DNA from: Lunularia cruciata
Taxonomy: Eukaryota > Streptophyta > Marchantiopsida > Lunulariales > Lunulariaceae
Direction of reading: 5' to 3'
DNA length: 64,000 bases
NCBI GenBank assembly: GCA_948567375.1
Contig: OX419760.1
Coordinates: forward strand, 12,338,001-12,402,000
Shown piece by piece: positions 23,767 to 64,000 of the stretch. The notes under the pieces are model-generated. The model made no database searches, had not been told where the DNA came from, and worked only from the letters and a program-made list of their open reading frames with translations. Position 1 is the first letter of the stretch; every line of letters starts with the position of its first letter. The translations under genes and the position numbers were made by a program.

Positions 23767-24100
23767 TTCATCAAACCATAGAGTCACAGTTCCTATGACT
23801 AACACCACCAACACTTTACATTTAGATACACCATCTTCTGATTATTGGGAATCAGATTTTGAAGAAGGAGCTTCAAGAGTGGACACAAGCATGGAAGAGG
23901 AGACTTCCACGAAGGAGGATGAAGCTGAATCTGATTCAGATGTGTATCCTTTGTGTACTATGGATTTTGCACCTAAGCCAGAGGCTTTGAAGGACCTAGA
24001 TAAATCACCATTGACACTTGAGGAGGTAGAGAGAAGGTTAGCTACCCTCAAGTATGGCCCAAATGTTACCAAGGAGGAGAAGGTGAGATTTGAGGAGATT
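23767..24100 (+). pseudogene. Protease-RT spacer of B-1
   Basis: An acidic stretch (DYWESDFEEGASR, VDTSMEEETSTKEDEAES) is followed by VYPLCTMDFAPKP and VTKEEKVRFEEIFCKFIHV. It is conserved in the minus-strand B copy (about 34950-34640). No known domain. It leads directly into RT. Confidence 0.6.
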
Positions 24101-25150
24101 TTTTGCAAGTTCATCCACGTTTTGCTTTCAATTACAAGGATTTGAAGGAAGTCACCTTGGAGGAGCACAAGATAGAGGTGGAGTCACATGCAAGACCAAT
24201 TTGCCAAAAACAATGTCGCATTAGCCCACCAATATCTTTGGTTGTGAAGGAGGAGATTGATAAGCTCAAGGAGGTTGGATTTATCTTTGAGGTAGAGAAT
24301 TCAGGATTGGTGTCTCCAATTGTTATTGTCAAGAAAAAGAATGGCAAGCTTTGGGTATGTGTGGATTACAAGAAGCTCAATGCTGTTACCAAGAAGGACT
24401 ACTACCCATTGCCATTCATTGATGAGATCTTGGAGGAGGTTGCAGGTCATGAGAGGTGTAGTTTTGGAGATGGTTATAGTGGATATAACCAAATCAAGAT
24501 TGCACCAGAGCATCAACAACTCACCACATTCACCACACCTTGGGGAACTTATGCTTTCAAGGTCATGCCTTTTGGGCTTTGCAATGCTCCAGCCACATTA
24601 CAACGGTTCATGAACAAGGTATTTGAACCTTTCACTGGGAAATTTGTGAGAGACTTGATTGATGACTTTTGTGTCTATGGGAGCAAGGAGGAGCACTTTG
24701 AGCACCTAATCAAGGTCTTGCAACGCTTGGATGAGGCAAATGCATCACTCAACCCAAAGAAGTGCATTTTTGGATGTGAAGAAGGTCTACTTTTGGGGCA
24801 CATCATCTCCAAAGATGGAATAGCAATTGATCCTGAGAAGGTGAGGAAAATCTCAGACCTTCCATTCCCTTCAAGCTTGACAAAGTTACGCCAATTCTTG
24901 GGGATGGTTGGATACTATAGGAGGTTCATCTTCTCTTTTTCCAACAAGGCTTATGCATTGAACATCTACATGAAGAAGGGTGTAGATTACATGGTGATTT
25001 TGGAAGACAAGAAGGCTCTTCAAAGCTTTTGAGGAGCTCAAGCAATCCCTTGTTGTAGCTCCAATTCTTGCTAAACCTGATTGGAGTAAGCCTTTCATCC
25101 TCTATACAGATCCTTCTAATGTAGCTATAGGATGCACTCTTAGTCAATTA
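24100..25150 (+). pseudogene. Reverse transcriptase domain of B-1
   Basis: A largely open RT region: VVKEEIDKLKEVGFIFEVE, SPIVIVKKKNGKLWVCVDY, KKLNAVTKKDYYPLPFIDE, MPFGLCNAPATLQRFMNK, a LIDDF catalytic box near 24655-24670, then LRQFLGMVGYYRRFI. This is an Athila-like, non-chromodomain Ty3/gypsy RT. It would make cDNA from element RNA in the cytoplasmic particle. Confidence 0.85.
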
Positions 25151-25500
25151 GACCAAGATGTGCATGATCATCCAATAGCTTATGCTAGTAGGCAGATGGT
25201 TTCAGCAGAGAAGAACTACTCTGTCACGGAGAGAGAAGGGTTGGCAATGATCTTTGGTCTCAAGAATTTTAGACACTACTTGATTGGAGGGAAAGCCACC
25301 ATTGTCATGGATCACAAGGCTTTGAAGTACATCTTCAACAAGCCTAATGGTGAAGGGAGACCAGCAAGGTGGATGATACTCCTGTCTGAGTATGACTACA
25401 CCATTGAGGATAGGCCAGGAAAGAAACATGCAAATGCTGATTTGTTATCTAGAGCCTATGATCATGATGGAGATGAGCCAGTGGATGATTCCTTCTTGGA
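25150..25500 (+). pseudogene. RNase H domain of B-1
   Basis: KPFILYTD-type start just upstream, then IAYASRQMVSAEKNYSVTER, EGLAMIFGLKNFRHYLIGG, ATIVMDHKALKYI and the terminal HANADLLSRA. These are the usual RNase H blocks between RT and integrase. Confidence 0.85.
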
Positions 25501-26820
25501 TGAGGAGCTCATGATAATCTCAGTCACTCAAGAGGTTCCAATGGAGTACAAGGAGATTGTGGATTTTGTGACAAGAGGTAACTATCCAGAAGGGATGCAT
25601 GCTAGGGAGAGGAAGGCCCTTGCAGCAAGATCTAGACCTTACACAATGGTGGAGAATATTCTTTTTCACCAAGGAGCAGATGGTCTACTTCGAAGAGCAG
25701 TGGGTAAGGAAGAGTCTATCCTACTCATAAAGGAGTTTCATGAAGGTTTAGTATGTGGAAGACACTTTGCAGGAAAAATGACTGCTTTCAAGATTCTAGA
25801 TGTAGGTTACCAATGGAGAGGGATTTTCAAGGATTGTCTTGATTATTGCAAAACTTGTCATGTTTGTCAAGCTTTTGCTAGAAAGTCTACATCCACTCCA
25901 CCACTTAGATCAATTCCATTGTTAGGACCTTTTGAGAAGTGGGGAATTGATTTTGTAGGTCCTCTCAATAAAACCCCAAGGAACAATTGGTACATTGTGG
26001 TAGTTATTGATTACCTTACCAAGTGGGTTGAGGCTAGACCATTGAGGGACAAGAATGAAGAAGAAGTTGGTAGATTTCTTTATGAATGCATTATTACTAG
26101 GTTTGGATGCCCCTTGGAGTTGGTTTTTGATAGAGGAGGAGAGTTTAGAGGAAGCATTACTACAGCCATGCTACGACATTTTTCTATCACACATAGAGTA
26201 ACTACATCCTGTAAGCCACATTCCAATGGCTTGGCAGAGAGAACCAATCAGACCTTGTGCATGATGTTGGCCAAAGATGCAGAAATGGAGGGAGCTAAAC
26301 ATCATTGGGACAAGAGGATTCATGCAGTTTTGTGGGAGTATAGGACAACCATGAAGACTTCCACCGGATATTCTCCATTTCAATTGGTATATGGTATTGA
26401 GTCTACCTTACCTATTCACTTTGATCTTCCAACCTTCCAAAGCATTCATAAGAGATTGAAGAAAGCACAAGGAGGTGATGCAGAGAAGTCAAGGAAGGAT
26501 CAACTCATGGAGTTGGAAGAGGCAAGAGCAATTGCTATGGTTCGAGTGGAGCAAGCCTAAAGGAAACAAAAGGAGAGCTATGACAAGAAGCAAGGCAAGA
26601 AGAAGGTGGAGCCTTTCAAAGAAGGTGATTGGGTAATGTTGTTTGATTCCATTCGATTCAAGAGAGTGCAAATGAAGTTTTTGCCTAAGTACTTTGGACC
26701 TTTCATAGTGGAGAAGGTGTAGGGCAATTACACCTATGATCTCAAGGAGTTGGGAGGAAGACACTTTGATAGGATTAACCATGATAAGTTGAAGATGTAC
26801 CATAGAAGGTAGAGAGACCT
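25500..26820 (+). pseudogene. Integrase region of B-1
   Basis: Zinc-binding N-domain (HEGLVCGRHFAGKMT ... CKTCHVCQAF); core from WGIDFVGPLN (first Asp) through VFDRGGEFRG (second Asp) to SNGLAERTNQTL (catalytic Glu); then YSPFQLVYGIESTLPIHFDL and a C-terminal part FLPKYFGPFIVEKV-like. The long C-terminal tail rich in Q, K and E has no chromodomain. It ends at the polypurine tract before the B LTR. Confidence 0.85.
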
Positions 26821-32099: not shown

Positions 32100-33330
32100 G
32101 TAATTGCCCTACACCTTCTCCATTATGAAAGGTCCAAAGTACTTAGGCAAAAACTTCTTTTGCACTCTCTTGAATTGAATGGAATCAAACAACATTACCC
32201 AATAACCTTCTTTGAAAGTCTCCACCTTCTTCTTGCCTTGCTTCTTGTCATAGCTCTCCTTTTGTTTCCTTTGGGCTTGCTCCACTTGAACCATAGCAAT
32301 TGCTCTTGCCTCTTCCAACTCCATGAGTTGATCCTTCCTTGACTTCTCTGCATCACCTCCTTGTGATTTCTTTAATCTCCTATGAATGCTTTGGAAGGTA
32401 GGAAGATCAAAGTGAATAGGTAAGGTAGACTCAATACCATATACCAATTGAAATGGAGAATATCCGGTGGAAGTCTTCATGGTTGTCCTATACTCCCACA
32501 AAACTGCATGAATCCTCTTGTCCCAATGATGTTTAGCCCCCTCCATTTCTGCATCTTCGGCCAACATCATGCAGAAGGTCTGATTGGTTCTCTCTGCCAA
32601 GCCATTGGAATTTGGCTTATAGGATGTAGTTACTCTATGTGTGATAGAAAAATTTTGTAGCATGGCTGTAGTAATGCTTCCTGTAAACTCTCCTCCTCTA
32701 TCAAAAACCAACTCCAAAGGGCATCCAAACCTAGTGATAATGCGTTCATAAAAAAATCTACCCACTTCATCTTCATTCTTGTCCCTCAATGGTCTAGCCT
32801 CAACCCACTTGGTAAGGTAATCAATAACTACCACAATGTACTGATTGTTCCTTGGGATTCTACTGAAAGGACCTACAAAATCAGTTCCCCACTTCTCAAA
32901 AGGTCCTAGCAATGGAATTGATCTAAGTGGTGGAGTGGATGTAGACTTTCTAGCAAAAGCTTGACAAACATGACAAGTTTTGCAATAATCAAGACAATCC
33001 TTGAAAATCCCTCTCCAATGGTAACCTGCATCTAGAATCTTGAAAGCAGTCACCTTTCATGCAAAGTGTCCTCCACATACTAAACCTTCATGAAACTCCT
33101 TTATGAGTAGGATAGACTCTTCCTTACCCACTGGTCTTCGAAGTAGACCATCAACTCCTTGGTGAATAAGAATATCCTCCACCATTGTGTAAGGTCTAGA
33201 TCTTGCTGCAAGGGCCTTCCTCTCCCTAGCATGCATCCCTTCTGGATAGTTACCTTTTGTCACAAAATCCACAATCTCCTTGTACTCCATTGGAACCTCT
33301 TGAGTGACTGAGATTGTCATGTGCTATTCA
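32100..33330 (-). pseudogene. Integrase region of B-3
   Basis: Minus strand: VTKGNYPEGMHARERKAL, HHCC domain (HEGLVCGGHFA ... CKTCHVCQAF), core WGTDFVGPFSR, VFDRGGEFTGS, SNGLAERTNQTF, then STLPIHFDLPTFQ and the tail FLPKYFGPFIMEKV. It is the same as the B-1 integrase and lacks a chromodomain. Confidence 0.85.
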
Positions 33331-33720
33331 TCCGGAAAGGAATCATCCATTGGCTCATCTCTATCATGATCATAGGCTCTAGATAACAAATCAGCATTTG
33401 CATGTTTCTTTCCTGGCCTATCCTCAATGGTGTAGTCATACTCAGACAAGAGTATCATCCACCTTGTTAGTCTCCCTTCAACATTAGGCTTGTTGAAGAT
33501 GTACTTCAAAGCCTTGTGATCCGTGACAATGGTGGCTTTCCCTCCAATCAAGTAGTGTCTAAACTTCTTGAGACCAAAGATCACTGCCAACCCTTCTCTC
33601 TCCGTGACAAAGTAGTTCTTCTTTGCTGAAACCATCTGCCTACTAGCATAAGCTATTGGATGATCATATAGTTACATTAGAAGCATCCTTTAGATACATT
33701 AGAAGCATCAGTGTAGAGGA
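33330..33720 (-). pseudogene. RNase H domain of B-3
   Basis: Minus strand blocks KPFILYTDASN, VSAKKNYFVTEREGLAVIF, KFRHYLIGGKATIVTDHKA and HANADLLSRAYDHD. It sits between RT and integrase. Confidence 0.85.
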
Positions 33721-34640
33721 TGAAAGGCTTACTCCAATCAGGTTTAGCAAGAATTGGAGCTACAACAAGGGATTGCTTGAGCTCCTCAAAAGCTTTGAGA
33801 GCCTCCTTGTCCTCCAAAATCACCATGTAATCTACACCCTTCTTCATGTAGATGGTCAATGCATAAGCCTTGTTGGAAAATGAGAAGATGAACCTCTTAT
33901 AGTATCCAACCATCCCCAAGAATTGGCGTAACTTTGTCAAGATTGAAGGGAATGGAAGGTCTGAGATTTTCCTCACCTTCTTAGGATCAACTGCTATTCC
34001 ATCCTTGGAGATGATGTGCCCCAAAAGTAGACCTTCTTCACATCAAAAAATGCACTTCTCTAGGTTGAGTGATGCATTTGCCTCATCCAAGCATTGCAAG
34101 ACTTTGATTAGGTGCTCAAAGTGCTCCTCCTTGCTTCCATAGACACAAAAGTCATCAATCAAGTCTCTCACAAATTTCCCAATGAAAGGTTCAAATACCT
34201 TGTTCATGAACCATTGGGATGTGGCTGGAGCATTGCAAAGCCCAAAAGGCATGACCTTGAAAGCGTAAGTTCCCCAAGGTGTGGTGAATGTGGTGAGTTG
34301 TTGATGCTCTGGTGCAATCTTGATTTGTTATATCCACTATAACCATCTCCAAAACTGTACCTGTCATGACCTGCAACCTCCTCCAAGATCTCATCAATGA
34401 ATGGCAATGGGTAGTAGTCCTTCTTGGTAACAACATTGAGCTTCTTGTAATCCACACATATCCAAAGCTTGCCATTCTTTTTCTTCACAATGACAATTGG
34501 AGACACCCATTCTGAATTCTCTACCTCAAAGATAAATCCAGCCTCCTTGAGCTTATCAATCTCCTCCTTCACAACCAAAGATATTGGTGGGCTAATGCGA
34601 TGTTGTTTTTAGCAAATTGGTCTTGCATGTGACTCCACCT
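33720..34640 (-). pseudogene. Reverse transcriptase domain of B-3
   Basis: Minus strand: VVKEEIDKLKEAGFIFEVE, SEWVSPIVIVKKKNG, YYPLPFIDEILEEV, MPFGLCNAPATSQWFMNKV, a LIDDF catalytic box, GHIISKDGIAVDPKKVRKI and LRQFLGMVGYYKRF. Athila-like RT, close to the B-1 copy. Confidence 0.85.
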
Positions 34641-35600
34641 CTATCTTGTGCTCCTCCAAGGTGACTTCCTTCAAATCCTTGTAACTAAAAGCAAACACAT
34701 GGATGAAGTTGCAAAAAATCTCCTCAAATCTCACCTTCTCCTCCTTGGTAACATTTGGGCCATACTTGAGGATAGATAACCTTCTCTTTACGTCCTCAAG
34801 TGTCAATGGTGATTTGTCTGGGTCCTTCAAAACCTCTGGCTTAGGTGCAAAATCCATAGCACACAAAGGATACACATCTGAATCAGATTCAGATTCAGAT
34901 TCATCCTCCTCCATGGAAGTCTCCTCTTCCATGCTTGTGTCCACACCTGAAGCTCCTTCTTCATAATATGATTACCAATAATCAAAAGATGGTGTATCTA
35001 AATGTGAAGTGTTGGTGGTGTTAGTCACAGGAACTGTGACTCTATGGTTTGATGGCCCAATCCTCAAGTACCCTTTGTACCATCAATCAGTTGTACGTGC
35101 TGCTCTCAACCATGGCCTCCCAAGAAGTAAGTCATAGCTTGAATCCTTCAATACTTGGAAAGTCATGAGATTTTGAACTCCCATAACTGAGACTACCACT
35201 TTATCCATCACCCCTACTGGTCGAACTTGTTGCTTGTTTGCCATGCTCACCACAAATGTTGAAGGTCTTGAGGGTATCATATCCAACTTTTTCATCAACC
35301 TTTCTGACATGGCATTTACTGCTGATCTTCCATCAACCAATGCATCCTTGATGTTGTGACCATTCACTCTCACATCAATCTTGGAGGCATATTCACAAGC
35401 CTCCCATGGTGCTGGCTTGGCATCCACCACTCCCATTGATACTGGAACTTTTGCCTTCTTCTTCCTCTTGCTCCTTGTAGAACTCAACCCACCTCTAAGC
35501 TCCTTTCTCAAGGTAGGGTTCAAAGCAATTAATTGGCCCACTATGATGTTAGCCTTGTGACTACCAACATCCTCCAACACATTGTAGTTCCATTGTTGCT
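34640..35600 (-). pseudogene. Protease and acidic spacer of B-3
   Basis: Minus strand: the protease block IKDALVDGRSAVNAMSERL and VMGVQNLMTFQVLKDSSYDL, LLGRPWLRAA (about 35400-35083), followed by the acidic spacer (MEEETSMEEDESESESDSDV) leading to RT. The empty site of the solo A LTR found in B-1 lies here near 35060. Confidence 0.75.
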
Positions 35601-36836
35601 TTGAGATTAAGAAGTCCTCCATCCCCAACTTCTTCCTTGGAGTCTTTGTTGTTGATGGTGTTGAGGTGCGAGTGCTCCTAGTAGAAATAGGAGTATCCTT
35701 GCTTGGAGTGAATCCTTGGAAGAGTGAACATCCTCTGCAAAACAAGCTCTCTTCTTCTCTTGTGCCAAAAGCTCCAAATTAAGACTCTTGGAGTTTGAGC
35801 ACTCTCCCTTCTCATACTTGCTCTCAGCCACATCTATGGATGCTATCCCCTTACCTTTGTTGGGATTAGGAGCCACTTGGGTTTCACTACCACCCTCTTT
35901 CTCTCTGTTGGCTCCCTCATAATCCCTTCCTCCATGGTAAGTGGAATTTGGGCAATTCCTTTGGATATGGCCTCTTCCCCCACAACCAAAACAATTTCTA
36001 TCATTGAAATTGTTGGCTAGTTGGCCTCCTCTATATGGATAGTTTCCATAACTCCTAGGCCCTCTCCCTACATTCTGATCCACCTCTCTCTTCTCCCATA
36101 ATTGCACCACATTGATCTTGAGATCCGCAAGTTGTTCTATGATGGTTTGAAGTGGATCTTTTGGTGGAGGTGCAAGAACTGGAGCAACCACTACTTGTGA
36201 TGCAACCCTTGCCACCAAAGTATCAGAAGTTCCACCATACTTGTAGCCTTGAGGAGGATGCACAACCTCCTTCACCACCAAATCACTCTCATCTCCTTCC
36301 AAACTCTCCTCCATACGAATTGCGATCTTGATAGCTTCAACCTTGGAAGAAGGTTTCTCATATCTCACCTTGCTTCTAATTTGTGATCTCAACCCTCCCA
36401 AAAAATTCTTGGTGAGCATGGCCCCTTTGCCAATCATTGTAGTCTCCACATCATCCCCACCCTTCCTCAACACTATGCAAAATCTGGACTCTAACTTTTC
36501 CACTCTTTCCACATAGACTCTCACTTTCTCTCCATCTCCTTGCTTGAGAAATGTAACCTCATTCATCAATCTCTCATAACTCTCATTAGGAAGAAAGTGC
36601 TCAATGAGTGCGGAAGTCAAAGTCTCCAAAGACTCCTCTTCCACATCTCTCCTCTCTCTCTTTTGGTATTCTGACTCATACCATGTAAGTGCTGCATCCT
36701 CAAAGAAATCTGGTAATAATGAGGCCCACTCATTCTTCCTCCTCTCATTGTTTCCTATGCAAGCTCTCTTGAAGTCTTTCACAAAGGTCTCCACATCTTC
36801 TCCATCCTTGCCAAAGAAAACCGGAAGTTTCCCCAT
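35600..36836 (-). pseudogene. gag of B-3
   Basis: Starts MGKLPVFFGKDGEDVETFV at 36836. The capsid-like domain (EWASLLPDFFEDAALTWYES, TFLKQGDGEKVRVYVERV, MLTKNFLGGLRSQIRSKV) is followed by a CCHC knuckle CFGCGGRGHIQRNC near 35990-35945. Gag would form the particle and bind RNA. The reading region is long and mostly open, the best gag in the window. It passes into the protease region downstream. Confidence 0.8.
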
Positions 36837-37066
36837 CTTAACCTCTCACTATCTTTCTTTCTCAATTTTTTTTCTCTTTTCTTTTCTCTCACTCTATTAC
36901 TAATAGAGTATATACATGACTAACACCATCTGAGAATAATCCACTCTAGGGAACACAAAAGGTTCAGGTTGCTCCAAGATTTCTATAGCAACATCAAATC
37001 CTAGAGTGCATATTAATCTAACTCTCATGGATAGTTTATCCATAAGTTGAAAGATTATCTCCATCA

Positions 37067-57964: not shown

Positions 57965-58044
57965 TTGGCACTTGGTGGTGTTGGCACGTGGTGGTGTTGG
58001 CACGTGGTGGTGTTGGCACGTGGTGGTGTTGGCACTTTGGTGGG
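57965..58044 (+). repeat. 16-bp tandem repeat with G-box cores
   Basis: Five copies of TTGGCACGTGGTGGTG, the first and last diverged. The three central copies each contain the palindromic G-box CACGTG (57985-57990, 58001-58006, 58017-58022). In plants this core is bound by bZIP and bHLH factors. It lies about 150-230 bp upstream of the gag start of element D. Confidence 0.85.
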
Positions 58045-58195: not shown

Positions 58196-60264
58196 GTGAG
58201 GGAGGAGATTGACTTTGAGTTGGAGTTCGACACAGGAGCTGATTCAATTGAGAGTGCACTTGGTATGTCCGCACCGTTGTTGTGGGACATGGATGAGATT
58301 TATGGGGCCTCCAAAGGCCCTAGGCGTTACTATGGTACAGTTGGTACCATTGAGTTGGATGACTTCATTCAGGAGTTTGATAGTTGGTGTGATCTGTAGT
58401 AGATGCGGAACCCGACTTTGTTCACACCCTTCATGGCATAGAAGGGGTTGTTTCAGCACTTGGAGGGTCCGCCGATGGATGACTACCATGAGTTCAAGAG
58501 AGCTCATTTGGAGGAGATTGAGTTATGGAGACAGTATTTGTCTCCACACTATGTCTCCATCACTTCAGGCTCGGTGGCCAGGAGTAGATCGGCTGTACCT
58601 ACGAGTTCTAGCTCAAGTAGTGTGGGTGGAGCTAGTGGAGGTGCACTAGCTGGAGATAGTGCTACTACGAGTGGAGCTACCGCTGCAGGAGGTGGTGTGG
58701 TACTAGGGTTTAACCCCATGGTGGAGTTCTTCCTGTGTTTGAGGCAAAACTACCAGGGAGTGCGGACTGTAACACCCATTTGTGCATATGTGTGGTATTG
58801 TGATATTTAGCTTGGTATTACAAGTACTTAAGAGATATTATTTATATAGAGATAAAGATGGTTCTATATTAGTCATGGTTAGCTAAAGTTAGTCATAGTT
58901 AAGATAGAGGGGACCTTACTTTAGAGGAAGTAGAAAAGATGAGCACCACTATTTTGGATTTTAGTGTGTTGACTTGGTATTATTCCTAGGTGTTTGGCTT
59001 TGAGGAAAGAGTTGAGAACTCTTGGGCCAACAAACCTTTTTGTTTTGGATTCTTCTTTAGTCCAAGGATAGCCCATGTGAAGGAATCCTTAACTTAGTGG
59101 TTGGGTCAAGATAAGACCACATGCTTAGGGGAATATGCCCATGTGAATGGATATTCCTTTCTACTTTTTTACTTTACTTGACTTTTAGTCTAGTAACTTG
59201 AGTTACTATGGTAATTAGTAACTTTGGTATGTAACTATTTCACAAGTATATAAACAAGGAGTGAGGAGGTACTCATCATCCTTTCATTTGCAACTATCTA
59301 TCTCTCATTGAGTTCTCTAGTGAGCAATGACTTGAGTCTTGGAGTGTTAGCCTTGGAGGAGTATGATGGAGTTCGGGTTCCTTGCCTTCTTAGTCCATGG
59401 TGCACTACCATGATAGCCATCAGAGGTTCATCCTGAGTGAGAGACAGGCCGGCTCATAGGACTGACAAGCTGAGGAGCTTGCAAGAGTTCCAGCGGAAGG
59501 CTGGAGAGAGCCTACGCGAGGCATACACTCGCATGAGACGGCTGATCAGTTTCACTCAGGGAGTTACTGAGGCCCAAGCAGTCCTGTTTTGGTATGGGAT
59601 ACTAGATAGGGAGTTGCGACATAGAGTTCATGATGCTACGTTGTTGCAGGCTACTTCGCCCACTTTGGCAATAGTCTTTGGTTTGGCTGAGCTTATTGAG
59701 CTCAACATGGTGGAGGAGAGAGTGGTGACATTTGGATTTGGTAGGGAGACCTCATCCACGGCTGTGACTTCTTCTAGAGTGCAGCAGAGTGCACCATGCC
59801 TAGTTGGTTATCAAGGACATGGTGGACAGCCCAGATCCTATGGAGCAAGTGGAGGGCCTAGTGGAGTTAGACCCTTACCCTCATTTTTGAGTCAGCAGCA
59901 GCCAGTGAGTGGTGGTGTTGCTTGTTGGACTTGTGGTGGACCTCACCATAGGAGAGAGTGTACTCAGGGCAGCGGACCTGATACCTCTGGTGCATCACAG
60001 CCAGCACAGAGGCAGTGTGAGCACTGCCACAGATTTGGTCACACTAGTGACCGGTGTTTTGACCTACACCCGGAGTTACGGAGTGGTAGGGCTGCTATGG
60101 CAGGTAGTAGAGGAGCTCCAGTTCATAGAGGACAAGGTGGTAGAGGTGGTGGTAGAGGATCTACATCTAGTAGGGGTGCAGTACTTGCCCTTACTTCTAA
60201 CATAGCTATGGCTACTCGGATTGAGCAGTTGGAGCAAAGATTGGCTAGTATGGCTATTGCTTAG
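58196..60264 (+). pseudogene. gag region of element D, split by a solo B LTR
   Basis: N-terminal part (REEIDFELEFDTGADSIES, ELDDFIQEFDSWCDL, GPPMDDYHEFKRAHLEEIEL) then a Ser/Gly-rich stretch to 58767. After the B LTR it resumes with a capsid-like block (LQEFQRKAGESLREAYTRMR, VLFWYGILDRELRHRV). Zinc knuckles follow: CWTCGGPHHRREC (59923-59961, CX2CX3HX4C) and CEHCHRFGHTSDRC (60016-60057, CX2CX4HX4C). An RGG-rich tail (RGQGGRGGGRG) and a short coiled coil (RIEQLEQRLASM) close it. Gag would package RNA. The RGG tail suggests extra RNA binding. Broken. Confidence 0.78.
58768..59457 (+). mobile_element. Solo LTR of family B inside the gag of element D
   Basis: A 0.69 kb B LTR, TGTAACACCC ... GGCCGGCTCA, with no internal sequence. 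The flanking words CGGAC (58763-58767) and AGGAC (59458-59462) form a 5-bp target duplication with one mismatch. It is close to the other B LTRs (15119-15809, 26861-29463, 31280-31970), so it inserted after element D. Confidence 0.88.
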
Positions 60265-60940
60265 AGGAGATCAGATTCGGGTGTTGAGGCTTCCACCTCA
60301 TATGCTGGTGATAGAGATGCTTTGGACTTCATGTGTGGAGCAGCACGAGTGGATGCATCTGCAGCAGTGACTAGGAGTGTAGTATGTGCTCCAGAGCCTA
60401 GAGGAGCATCAGTGGAGTTGGACCCACAGAGATGAGAGGTTGGGAGACAAGTCAGACTTCCCCAGTCTTTCATGCTATCTGAGGCATTGCACACAACATC
60501 CATGGTTCCTAGACTTCCCAGTGCAGGTGTGGTTGGTGGAGATGGAGTACATGATGGACTACCTGCTAGTCAGCCATTTGCTACTACACAGACTGAGTCT
60601 AGCATGATGTTTGGGGCGGCTCAGCTGATTATGTGGCATCCTTTGTTTTCAGCCAGTGACATGTTTACATTGGGAGTTGACCCAGCTCCAATGTTCCGGT
60701 TGGCTGCCACATTGTGTGAGAGTAGGGATGGTGTAGTTCCTACTACTAGAGCAAAGGTGGTTGATAGTGGAGCTGACTTGGTTGAGGAGCATAGGATCCA
60801 TTCAGCGACCAGTGGTTTATGGCAGGCAGTAGTGGCTAGACTGGAGGAGTTGCCAACTAGACCGGCCTTTGAGAGAGCACGGTTTACACCTGGTGTTGTC
60901 CTATTGGATAACTAGAGGGGGATTTTTTGTTTGGTGGGAC
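60265..60940 (+). pseudogene. gag-protease linker of element D
   Basis: Translation shows a moderately acidic, Ser/Thr-rich stretch (SMMFGAAQLIMWHPLFSASD, VDPAPMFRLAATLCESRDG, ATSGLWQAVVARLEELPTRP). No known domain is recognised. It joins the gag tail to the protease. Confidence 0.5.
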
Positions 60941-61240
60941 CTTCAAAGAAGGTCTATACACCACAGAGAGTCTTGTTAGACTCTGGTGCGCAACCTCTTA
61001 TGTTGGGGAAAGCTGCAGTTGTCGGGCTGGAGTTACGGAAGACCGATGTGGAGAGGTGTCCATTTCCAATCCAGACATCTCTATTGGTGGTTTGACACAG
61101 TACATCACACGTGGAGAGCTTGTTGTCCAGGTTCAGCCTGGTCATCCGACTGATAGCTCGGTGGTGAGAGCTCAGGCTATTGCGACGATAGCTAAGTCAT
61201 ATGATGTGCTAGTTGGGAGAGCAATGTTATACCCCATGGG
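60940..61240 (+). pseudogene. Aspartic protease of element D
   Basis: VYTPQRVLLDSGAQPLMLGK near 60953-61012 carries the DSGA active site of retropepsins, followed by GLELRKTDVERCPFPI. A later piece, YDVLVGRAMLYPMGFSIDYW (about 61200-61260), matches the closing region of the domain. It would release Gag, the methyltransferase and the pol enzymes from the polyprotein. Broken. Confidence 0.68.
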
Positions 61241-61690
61241 TTTCAGCATTGACTATTGGGAGGAGACAGCCTCTTATAGACCTGGTTGGCAGTCTGGTGA
61301 GGGACGGGTATGTCGCCTACCAGTACGCTTCAGTAGTGGCAGTCTTGGCTCACTACAGTCCGGGACCATGGCAACATCAGTTTTAGCTTTCAGCGGTGCC
61401 GTTACTTGGCCTGGTGACTTGTTGGAGGAGAACGTCCATGCAGAGGATACTCCAGTACCAGAGGAGATCACTTGGCTATGGAGTACTAGTGGGATTGTTC
61501 CATCCACCTTGGATGTTCCATTGTGGAGTTCAGAGGAGGCATTGCAGCAGCATGCAGATCAGTTGGTGCAGCAGGGTTGGAGTGGAGCCTTTATACCATC
61601 AGGAGATGAGTGTGAGGATGAGCCTCCAGAGGCGATTGCTTTGACACCTCTAGACACCACACTCATTGCTTGGCAGTATCCAGTAGAGGG
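61240..61690 (+). pseudogene. Spacer between protease and methyltransferase of element D
   Basis: About 150 residues with many Trp, Glu and Pro (WSGAFIPSGDECEDEPPEAI, LLEENVHAEDTPVPEEITWL, WSSEEALQQHADQLVQQGW). No family is recognised. Neighbouring family A and B elements have only an acidic spacer at this place. It ends with VEGICL, just before motif I of the methyltransferase. Confidence 0.5.
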
Positions 61691-62650
61691 GATATGCCTA
61701 TAAGAGTTGTTTGGTGGGATCAGCACCGGACTAGCTGCGGTGTTACAAGCGGGTATCCGAGTACAGAGGTACTTGTATGTAGAGAGAGATGAGACTGCTA
61801 GGCGAGTCTCTCTACATCATGTGGCACACTTGGCCTATCGGTATCCGGAGTTATTACCGATGTCAGCAGTCAAAGGTTACCAGAAGGCCTTACTAGGAGA
61901 CATTTCCTTATTGGGGGCGCATGACCTAGAGAGACATGGGCCTATTCACTTGGTGATTTTTGGATGGCCATGTCAAGGACATATACGTGTGGGCCGCGGT
62001 TTGGGTCTTCAGGATCCTTGTTCCGATGTGTTTTGGGAGATGTTACAGATACTACAACATCTCCGGGTTCATCAATCTGTTTCTCTAGCTTACCTTTTGG
62101 AGAACGTTCCTTTGATGGGTGATTCTTGCACTAGAGTGGTGGCGAGTACACATCAGGTCCATTCTTGGATGGGACCTACTGTATTGTTAGAAGTAGCCAT
62201 AGTGGGATCACGGGCTCATCGTCTTTGTCTTTGGTGGACGAACCTCTTACCCAGAGAGGTTCTACAGCGTGCTTATGATTGGATTCAGCGATTGGACCAC
62301 ATTCTTGTTGATGATATCTTGGATGTTGGGCGTTAGTCTCAGACAATGGTAGTGGCTGATAGGTCACCTATGGCAGTGGTGAACCTAGTTGGACAGCCTA
62401 GAGCTGCATTTCCCACACTCATGAGTTTCCCAAGCTCTCATGCTTTTCGAGAGGGAGGACCTGGACTTGTTTGGGACTCACAGTTACAGCAGTTGGTGGA
62501 GCCCAACGCTGATGAGAGAGAGCGGGCAATGGGTTTTCGCACCAGTATTACCGCTGTTCCAGTAGTGTCAGAGGCATCCAGGCGTCAGGTGTTAGGTCAG
62601 GCTATGGACCTGAACTGTTTGACCAGGATTGTGAGCCTTGGCTTGGTAGA
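61690..62650 (+). pseudogene. C5-cytosine DNA methyltransferase domain (DNMT3-like) inside element D
   Basis: C5 methyltransferase motifs occur in the usual order. Motif I is ELFGGISTGL (SAM binding) at about 61704-61733. Motif II is YLYVERDE. Motif IV is GWPCQG, with the catalytic Cys at 61971-61973. Motif VI is LLENVPLMGDS, with ENV at 62100-62108. Motif VIII is GSRAHR...WWTNLLP at about 62205-62240. Motif IX is like AFPTLMSFPSSHAF at about 62403-62445. ERERAMGFRTSIT and RRQVLGQAMDLNCLTRIV (motif X) lie at about 62520-62640. The short gap between motifs VIII and IX and the HR...W-TNL block resemble DNMT3 rather than DNMT1 or bacterial enzymes. The expected reaction is transfer of methyl from S-adenosylmethionine to cytosine C5. 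It sits in pol between protease and RT. Broken, only a few breaks. Confidence 0.85.
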
Positions 62651-63040
62651 GCAGCGTAGGATGCGCTTGATAGGCATCACCACTCAGACACTTGTGAGCC
62701 CTATGCCTATCGAGACGATTCAAGCATATGCTAGGGGCGATGGACCGAGTGGACATGGTATTCTTGGGACACATCCAATAGCTACTAGGGAGAGTGGTCT
62801 ACTTAGAGTCCATCCAGGTGAGCGTGGGCTACTTGGATTACACCCTTGGTCCACATGGGATGTAGCCAGAGGACGTGTGGAGCTTGCAGCCAGAGCGGAG
62901 GGAGTTTTTCACACAGAGGTTGGGACCTCTAGTGGTCGGGAGCATGATACTATTGCTCCCAAGGGCCCAGTGTAGCAGCCAATCAGTACGTCTTCCACTC
63001 CTACTACAATTACAGAGGATACTTGGTAGCCAGATCTTGG
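62650..63040 (+). pseudogene. Linker between methyltransferase and RT of element D
   Basis: About 110 residues after motif X. It contains three loose repeats of a G-L/I-L-x-x-HP motif (HGILGTHP, SGLLRVHP, RGLLGLHP) and then RVELAARAEGVFHTEVGTSS. No known domain. The repeats may form a flexible or binding segment. The function is unknown. Confidence 0.5.
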
Positions 63041-64000
63041 ACCCAAGCTGACTGGAGAGGAAAGACGGAGGGTTTGGAGGTTCTTGAGGAGTCACACAAG
63101 TTGTTTTGCCTTCAGTATGAAGGATTTGGGTGCTCTGAAGGGACTTGGTATACGGATTGAGCTGACTAGCGACACACCAATTTTCCGATGTCCTTATCGA
63201 TATAGTGATATGGAGAGGACATTGATTCATAGCCGGAGTAGTGACCTTTTTGAGGTTGGTTTGGTGGAGATTTCACATGGAGAGTATGCATCAGCAACAG
63301 TGATGCTAGCCAAGAAGGATATGCATGGCAACTATACAGATAGGCGGATGTGTGGAGATTACCGTCCTATCAACCGACAGACTAGGGCTGATCGGTATGC
63401 CATGCCTACACCAGAGGAAATTTTTGATGCGATTGGGCATGCAAAGGTCTTCAGTACTTTGGATCTTCAAGCGGGATATCATCAGTTGCCGATCAAGGAG
63501 GAGGATAAGTCCAAGACAACATTCTAGGCTATTGATCCTTATGGCAAGGATGTGTTATATCATGGATAGGATCCTAGCTAGATTGGATTTTGCTCGGTGC
63601 TATATTGATGACATTTTGGTTTATAGCACTACTGTGGAGGAGCATGAGAGACAATTGTTGGAGGTGTTTGAGAGGTTGAGATCTGATGGACTCAAACAAC
63701 ATCCTGGGAAGTGTAGGTTCTTCCATGAGCAGGTTGAGTATTTGGGTCATACTATCTACCCCGGAGGACTTGGTGTTCAGCAGACCAAGGTGGAGGCTAT
63801 TGCACGTATTCCTCGGCCTACGGATGTGAGCAGAGTGTGAGCATTCCTTGGGTTGGCAAACTTTTATCGCCGCTATATTAGAGGATTTAGTGCCATTGCC
63901 AAGGCCTTGATGAAGCTGACCAAGCTTACACAGGAGTGGTGTTGGGGAGATGAGCAGGAGAGAGCTTTTGTAGAGCTCAAGGAGAGGTTGACATCTGCTC
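63040..64000 (+). pseudogene. Reverse transcriptase of element D (to window edge)
   Basis: FSMKDLGALKGLGIRIELTS, SHGEYASATVMLAKKDMHGN, MCGDYRPINRQTRADRYAMP, FSTLDLQAGYHQLPIKEEDK, the catalytic YIDDILVYS at 63601-63627, KCRFFHEQVEYLGHTIYPGG, FLGLANFYRRYIRGFSAIAK, and the approach to RNase H (ERAFVELKERLTSA) at the edge. The YIDDILVYS and LDLQAGYHQ forms differ from the FIDDF and LIDDF of families A and B, so D is a distinct Ty3/gypsy lineage. Broken. Confidence 0.85.

Follow-up and report, generated by a model that had tools for sequence, protein, structure and literature searches.

The window analysed here, a stretch of 64,000 nucleotides from the liverwort Lunularia cruciata (contig OX419760.1, positions 12,338,001 to 12,402,000), contains a decayed copy of a Ty3/gypsy retrotransposon in which a DNMT3-like C5 cytosine methyltransferase (MTase) stands between the retropepsin and the reverse transcriptase (RT). 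The copy belongs to a large, high-copy Ty3/gypsy family that has this MTase built in. Cytosine MTases of this sort serve cells to silence transposons via DNA methylation, and transposons are normally targets of DNA methyltransferases. The retention of an MTase by an abundant plant element, under a constraint like that acting on protease and RT, suggests that it is of use to the element at some step. We favour, with a probability of about 0.6, the reading that the window holds a decayed copy of a high-copy element organised as long terminal repeat (LTR), Gag-protease-MTase, UAG-CAR-YYA, RT-RNase H-integrase-PHD finger and LTR, and that the MTase is packed into the particle and methylates the element's own complementary DNA (cDNA).

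The methyltransferase domain and its element family

A first-pass annotation of the window had placed the MTase motifs I, II, IV, VI, VIII, IX and X, in this order, between a retropepsin and an RT and had read the whole as a Ty3/gypsy element that incorporates a DNMT3-like enzyme; both statements are borne out by profile, PDB, RT and protease evidence (Table 1). The motifs follow the unrearranged order of DNMT3, and the catalytic fold, as predicted for the relative P0001, is of the DNMT3 type. The open half of the domain (61704-62333) matched the Pfam profile DNA_methylase (PF00145), the comparison that had been suggested, at the motif positions (E 1.6e-4; 21.7 bits, just under the 22-bit cut-off), DNMT3A in the PDB (E 5.6e-7) and 59 proteins (best E 6.9e-86). 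Moreover, the relative P0001 aligns across the entire domain (61563-62657, 68%), and the best PDB matches of its predicted fold are DNMT3A and 3B, followed by 3C and DRM.

Searches of the host genome (566 Mb) yielded at least 123 scored matches with the PF00145 profile and at least 111 full-length matches with P0001 (72-74%), the window copy not being among the latter. With 19 matches shared and about six attributed to host genes (four of these loci were read, two were judged from the profile stretch alone), this amounts to roughly 209 places. Ten matches are free of stops and sit in open frames of at least 1,428 codons. The 24 retro-type loci that we read comprise four stretches of 3.3 kb (L011-L014) and another 20 of 9.5 kb (L015-L034), the latter picked for long open frames, so that the sample is biased to intact copies. 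The first-pass annotation had held that a genuine arrangement should recur elsewhere in the genome, and it does: the MTase is followed by the RT in all 24 loci, with a whole protease upstream in 23 and part of one in L011. The MTase is without a stop in 13 of the 24. All 20 long loci show Gag-protease-MTase, TAG and RT-RNase H-integrase-PHD finger on the same strand, L021 retaining only the gag end; this includes the Ty3/gypsy order Gag-protease-RT-RNase H-integrase, which the window displays only up to the RT. The integrase-PHD portion is 78-85% identical to the Marchantia protein P0105. Terminal repeats, 93-100% alike, were found in 12 of the 20 loci, and none lies within the fetched stretch in eight. 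The pair of L017 measures 454 bp (97.6% identity), and no target-site duplication was seen at it. The primer-binding site TGGTATCAGAGC had no match near the element when up to 2 mismatches were allowed. The idea that a host DNMT gene copy was inserted by chance beside a retrotransposon has next to no probability and was rejected, as the MTase precedes the RT in 24 of 24 further loci and in bryophyte, charophyte and metagenome proteins, and the host DNMT3-like and DRM sequences fall outside the retroelement clade described below.

Constraint on the methyltransferase

Pooled over 25 sequences (the 24 loci and the window), whose pairs are not independent, the ratio of non-synonymous to synonymous differences (pN/pS) is 0.38 for the MTase, near the values of the protease (0.36) and RT (0.32) and below both of its flanks, the spacer (0.67) and the tail (0.71). 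The remaining parts gave 0.49 (gag), 0.36 (RNase H), 0.51 (integrase) and 0.46 (integrase C-terminus and PHD finger). Resampling of the 24 copies without the window gave 0.30-0.42 for the MTase, -0.04 to 0.12 for MTase minus RT and 0.11 to 0.66 for spacer minus MTase. Between the window and the other copies the MTase ratio is 0.62, which is expected because the window copy is dead. Over a longer distance, the Marchantia protein P0060 and the metagenome protein P0079 share 52% identity in the MTase and 48% in the protease, against 28%, 23% and 36% in gag, spacer and tail, respectively. Judged by these sequence comparisons, the MTase is under evolutionary constraint comparable to that on protease and RT.

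The catalytic Cys and Glu are retained in all 25 sequences, each Arg of motif VIII in 24 (the exceptions being L020 and the window, in which the second Arg is replaced by Cys, encoded by TGT) and one Gly of motif I in 22. Among 101 retroelement rows, the Cys is present in 88 (10 gaps) and the Glu in 94 (4 gaps). This conservation speaks against the proposal that what the domain retains, its fold and binding residues, serves a role that is non-catalytic or directed at RNA. That proposal draws on motif IV, which reads PCQ and not PCN as in the animal DNMT3 rows, and on the Klebsormidium enzyme, described as without activity in yeast in a passage of de Mendoza et al. (2018; PMC5890265); we regard it as quite unlikely. 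The TGT in motif VIII of the window copy is what a CpG-to-TpG change would give.

A conserved stop codon between methyltransferase and reverse transcriptase

The first-pass annotation had located the enzyme inside pol. This has to be revised, as all 25 sequences have a TAG in the RT frame between the two domains, a conserved stop that puts the MTase on the Gag side (Table 1). In 24 of these sequences, which comprise L011-L034 and the window, the MTase frame leads straight to the TAG, which is followed by CAG, YYA and the RT in frame; L030 has a frame change upstream of the junction, yet carries the identical TAG-CAG-YYA in the RT frame. A 28-base junction pattern had 1,045 matches in the genome with the stop codon left free and 1,015 with TAG fixed, and the reversed pattern had 0; a match joins the end of open reading frame (ORF) 1 to the start of the RT ORF and does not prove an intact MTase. 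Either side of the TAG there are 1,142 and 1,037 open codons in L018, and 1,209 and 1,037 in L020.

The junction thus has the features of type I readthrough, as in tobacco mosaic virus (TMV), namely UAG, CAR YYA and a long open frame thereafter. CAR YYA 3' of UAG is named essential for TMV readthrough in a passage of PMC2754532. Because the TAG carries this context, the abundant Gag product probably has the MTase at its end. An RNA structure downstream of the stop was not found in three sequences. In murine leukaemia virus, gag and pol likewise lie in one frame and are parted by UAG (PMC4178896); unlike there, the stop of the present family comes after protease and MTase and has a TMV-type context.

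Proposed function

Most ribosomes would halt at the UAG and release Gag-protease-MTase, and a minority would pass it to make the full polyprotein, so that both products would carry the MTase. The enzyme would be packed into the particle in Gag-like amounts and could methylate the double-stranded cDNA of the element before or during integration, and the new copy would then arrive methylated. The PHD finger of the integrase probably reads histone H3 and might steer or stabilise the insertion. Passing as self, early quiet or protection are possible benefits to the element. Methylation of the element's own cDNA seems the likeliest function. As Marchantia is a laboratory model with relatives of the element, the question is testable.

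The same chemistry could have the opposite benefit if methylated new insertions recruited host silencing, with less harm to the host and longer persistence of the element. Such self-restraint was raised among other options in a section of de Mendoza et al. (PMC5890265), and the host has DNMT3-like, DRM and, by motif reading, CMT-like genes able to act on the mark. However, the 1,045 junction matches and the close similarity of the terminal repeats in 12 of the 20 long-frame loci suggest recent spread, and we consider self-restraint unlikely. A further proposal, made for retrotransposon methylases in a passage of PMC6338049, is that the enzyme acts mainly on other nucleic acids such as DNA viruses, rival elements or host loci. 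However, its fusion with Gag-protease argues for the particle as its place of action. Moreover, the same source connects a disappearance of such methylases from land plants with a scarcity of DNA viruses, whereas bryophyte proteins include relatives; action on other nucleic acids is therefore very unlikely in our view.

The observed/expected ratio of CpG is 0.36 in the element, 0.44 in the window and 0.09-0.60 in other Ty3 stretches. CpG depletion was accordingly rejected as a mark of self-methylation, being not distinctive and not specific to the element. The very low value of 0.09 was found in the Ty3 stretches 24094-26557 and 32112-36845, and two others of the window have 0.54-0.60.

Relatives and origin

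Named protein matches include Marchantia polymorpha, Riccia sorocarpa, Calypogeia fissa, Sphagnum species, Klebsormidium nitens, Closterium and Haematococcus lacustris. The order protease-MTase-RT is found in Marchantia and Sphagnum proteins, MTase-RT in Riccia and protease-MTase in Calypogeia, all of these bryophyte proteins being gene models to whose domain arrangement splicing may contribute. MTase-RT also occurs in charophyte and metagenome proteins. Among 78 complete MTase domains from database proteins, 59 end within 200 residues without a further domain; of the others, 8 are followed by RT and 10 by integrase or RNase H, and 1 is of another kind. A place on the Gag side is thus frequent, though not general, among the relatives.

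For the MTase tree, 112 usable rows were thinned to 69, and removal of Dcm and P0122 left 67; among the 43 rows left out in thinning were three animal DNMT3s and one phage row. All 61 retroelement MTases group together in a single clade (100/100), outside which lie two animal DNMT3s and four phage enzymes. The window MTase belongs to an 11-row clade with liverwort and Sphagnum proteins (100/100). The K. nitens protein P0132, which we take to be of the element KnitGypsy-Dnmt3 discussed below, also lies inside the 61-row clade (100/100). The retroelement clade sits on a long branch, and neither the animal DNMT3 rows nor the DNMT3-like and DRM rows of the host fall within it. In a half-domain tree (132 columns, long branches), the host DNMT3-like (L007) and DRM (L008) sequences are outside it (99/97), and this tree does not support either of these two host genes as the source of a recent capture. 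As to the host DNMT genes, L007 (C7) and L010 (C1) are DNMT3-like exons, L008 (C1) is a rearranged DRM and L009 (C8) is CMT-like by motif reading only.

Nine rows with the MTase before the integrase form one clade, and a single change of position suffices for the 40 labelled rows (97/91), with P0111, P0117 and P0125 of the nine having no RT and being labelled by the MTase-integrase order alone. Against a single move stands P0131, an unlabelled Haematococcus gene model in that clade with a retropepsin about 450 residues before the MTase; no RT was found between the two. The second arrangement, RNase H-MTase-integrase, is seen in P0113, P0121, P0129, P0108 and P0126, and in P0108 the integrase is followed by a PHD finger and a Tudor domain.

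In the RT tree (midpoint root), the MTase-bearing elements are apart from three control Ty3 elements of the window (100/100), a fourth control having given no RT match. Co-divergence of RT and MTase was not significant in a Mantel test, and no DNA relatives were confirmed in the viral and genome contig collections searched. We tentatively propose, at somewhat less than even odds, that a DNMT3-like enzyme entered one green-plant Ty3 lineage in a single capture that predates land plants, and that selection has preserved it there since, at a UAG-controlled Gag level and together with the integrase PHD finger, so that the particle would bring a DNA-methylation writer and a histone reader to set the chromatin of each new insertion; within Pol, the enzyme would have changed place at least once, to lie between RNase H and integrase. 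As the trees are without algal host DNMT3s, repeated capture from hosts outside the sample may also have occurred.

Comparison with known systems

The kind of MTase-bearing Ty3 element is already known. As sections of de Mendoza et al. (2018; PMC5890265) describe, KnitGypsy-Dnmt3 of Klebsormidium nitens is an LTR Gypsy element with a DNMT3-like MTase in the Pol ORF, DIRS-like repeats and reported purifying selection, and SymbioDIRS-Dnmt3 and SymbioLINE-Dnmt of Symbiodinium are cytosine MTase retroelements with hundreds of copies. The first-pass annotation was therefore right that such enzymes occur in dinoflagellates and Klebsormidium; its view that they are unusual in land-plant elements needs to be changed in the light of the Marchantia, Sphagnum, Riccia and Calypogeia proteins. 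Like the Lunularia family, P0132 has its MTase directly ahead of the RT start and shares the MTase clade. However, its MTase is only 31% identical to P0001, and the MTase of KnitGypsy-Dnmt3 is placed in the Pol ORF, whereas in the 25 sequences here a TAG in the RT frame parts it from the RT. For the present family, which has plain terminal repeats, the sole kind looked for, the analysis shows occurrence in land plants, copy number, the TAG junction and the PHD finger. The Symbiodinium elements are of the DIRS and LINE types and not Ty3; no protein match was named as dinoflagellate, most matches bearing no name. With animal and plant DNMT3 and DRM, the retroelement MTase shares the DNMT3 fold and motif order. 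It differs from animal DNMT3 by PCQ in place of PCN, its separate long-branch clade and its fusion to Gag-protease; Pfam scans of the relatives gave no ADD or PWWP match.

In the literature searched (open literature; most subscription journals and preprints lie outside), we found no description of bryophyte elements of the present kind, nor of their occurrence in land plants, their copy number, an MTase on the Gag side, the readthrough context or the PHD reader. The gene layout was not seen in this literature either, and no PHD finger in Ty3 elements was recognised among the literature matches listed. A passage of PMC6338049 states that retrotransposon methylases are absent from land plants, and the bryophyte proteins speak against such an absence from land plants as a whole. 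LTR Copia and DIRS are given for methylase-bearing elements in an excerpt of PMC12344493.

The copy in the window

The window copy is dead, because its pieces differ in frame and each contains stops. The element starts at about 58,289, and Marchantia P0060 (1,278 aa; Gag, protease and MTase) maps to 58,289-58,768, 59,458-61,083 and 61,080-62,945 (51-60%). Gag is interrupted by a foreign LTR, after which its homology picks up again at 59458. Protease and RT have one frame change each, and the active site of the protease (DSG at 60979) is in a different frame from the MTase.

Table 1 Features of the element copy and of its MTase in the window
Feature	Position	Strand	Evidence and remarks
gag N-terminal part	58289-58768	+	tblastn Marchantia P0060 residues 1-154, 60%; 3 in-frame stops
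LTR of an unrelated Ty3 family, nested in gag	about 58768-59457 (edges ~ +/-2 bases)	.	GGACT each side
gag remainder, frame 1	59458-60911	+	tblastn P0060 153-672, 51%, reaching 61083
Retropepsin	60912-61360, edges approximate	+	P0060 protease region maps here; frame change near 61080
DNMT3-like C5 cytosine MTase	61698-62657	+	Pfam, PDB, protein and tblastn matches; in-frame stops 61701, 62334
Motif I LFGGISTGL	61707-61733	+	
Motif II YLYVERDE	61770-61793	+	
Motif IV FGWPCQGH	61959-61982	+	
Motif VI LLENVP	62094-62111	+	
Motif VIII GSRAHRLCLWWTN	62205-62243	+	
Motif IX ADERERAMGF	62508-62537	+	
Motif X LGQAMDLN	62592-62615	+	
ORF1 tail, fast-evolving	62658-62972	+	tblastn P0060 up to residue 1271; pooled pN/pS 0.71
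Conserved stop TAG then CAG CCA, ORF1/ORF2 boundary	62973-62981	+	TAG itself 62973-62975
RT	63024-64000, truncated by window end	+	PF00078; frame shift near 63,530

One of the two RT pieces exceeds the PF00078 cut-off, and they are 72% and 67% identical to Marchantia P0067. The match of the gag remainder to PF03732 is weak (E 0.043, below its cut-off), and the Pfam scan of the window gave no protease match. The MTase queries found a single MTase place in the window, P0118 adding short RNase H-end matches in three other elements. RT matches occur in four more Ty3 elements and one fragment of the window. The nested LTR, used as a 698-bp query, has six further places in the window (at least 230 bp, 76-96% identity), and a tandem 16-bp repeat lies at 57965-58043, immediately upstream of gag.
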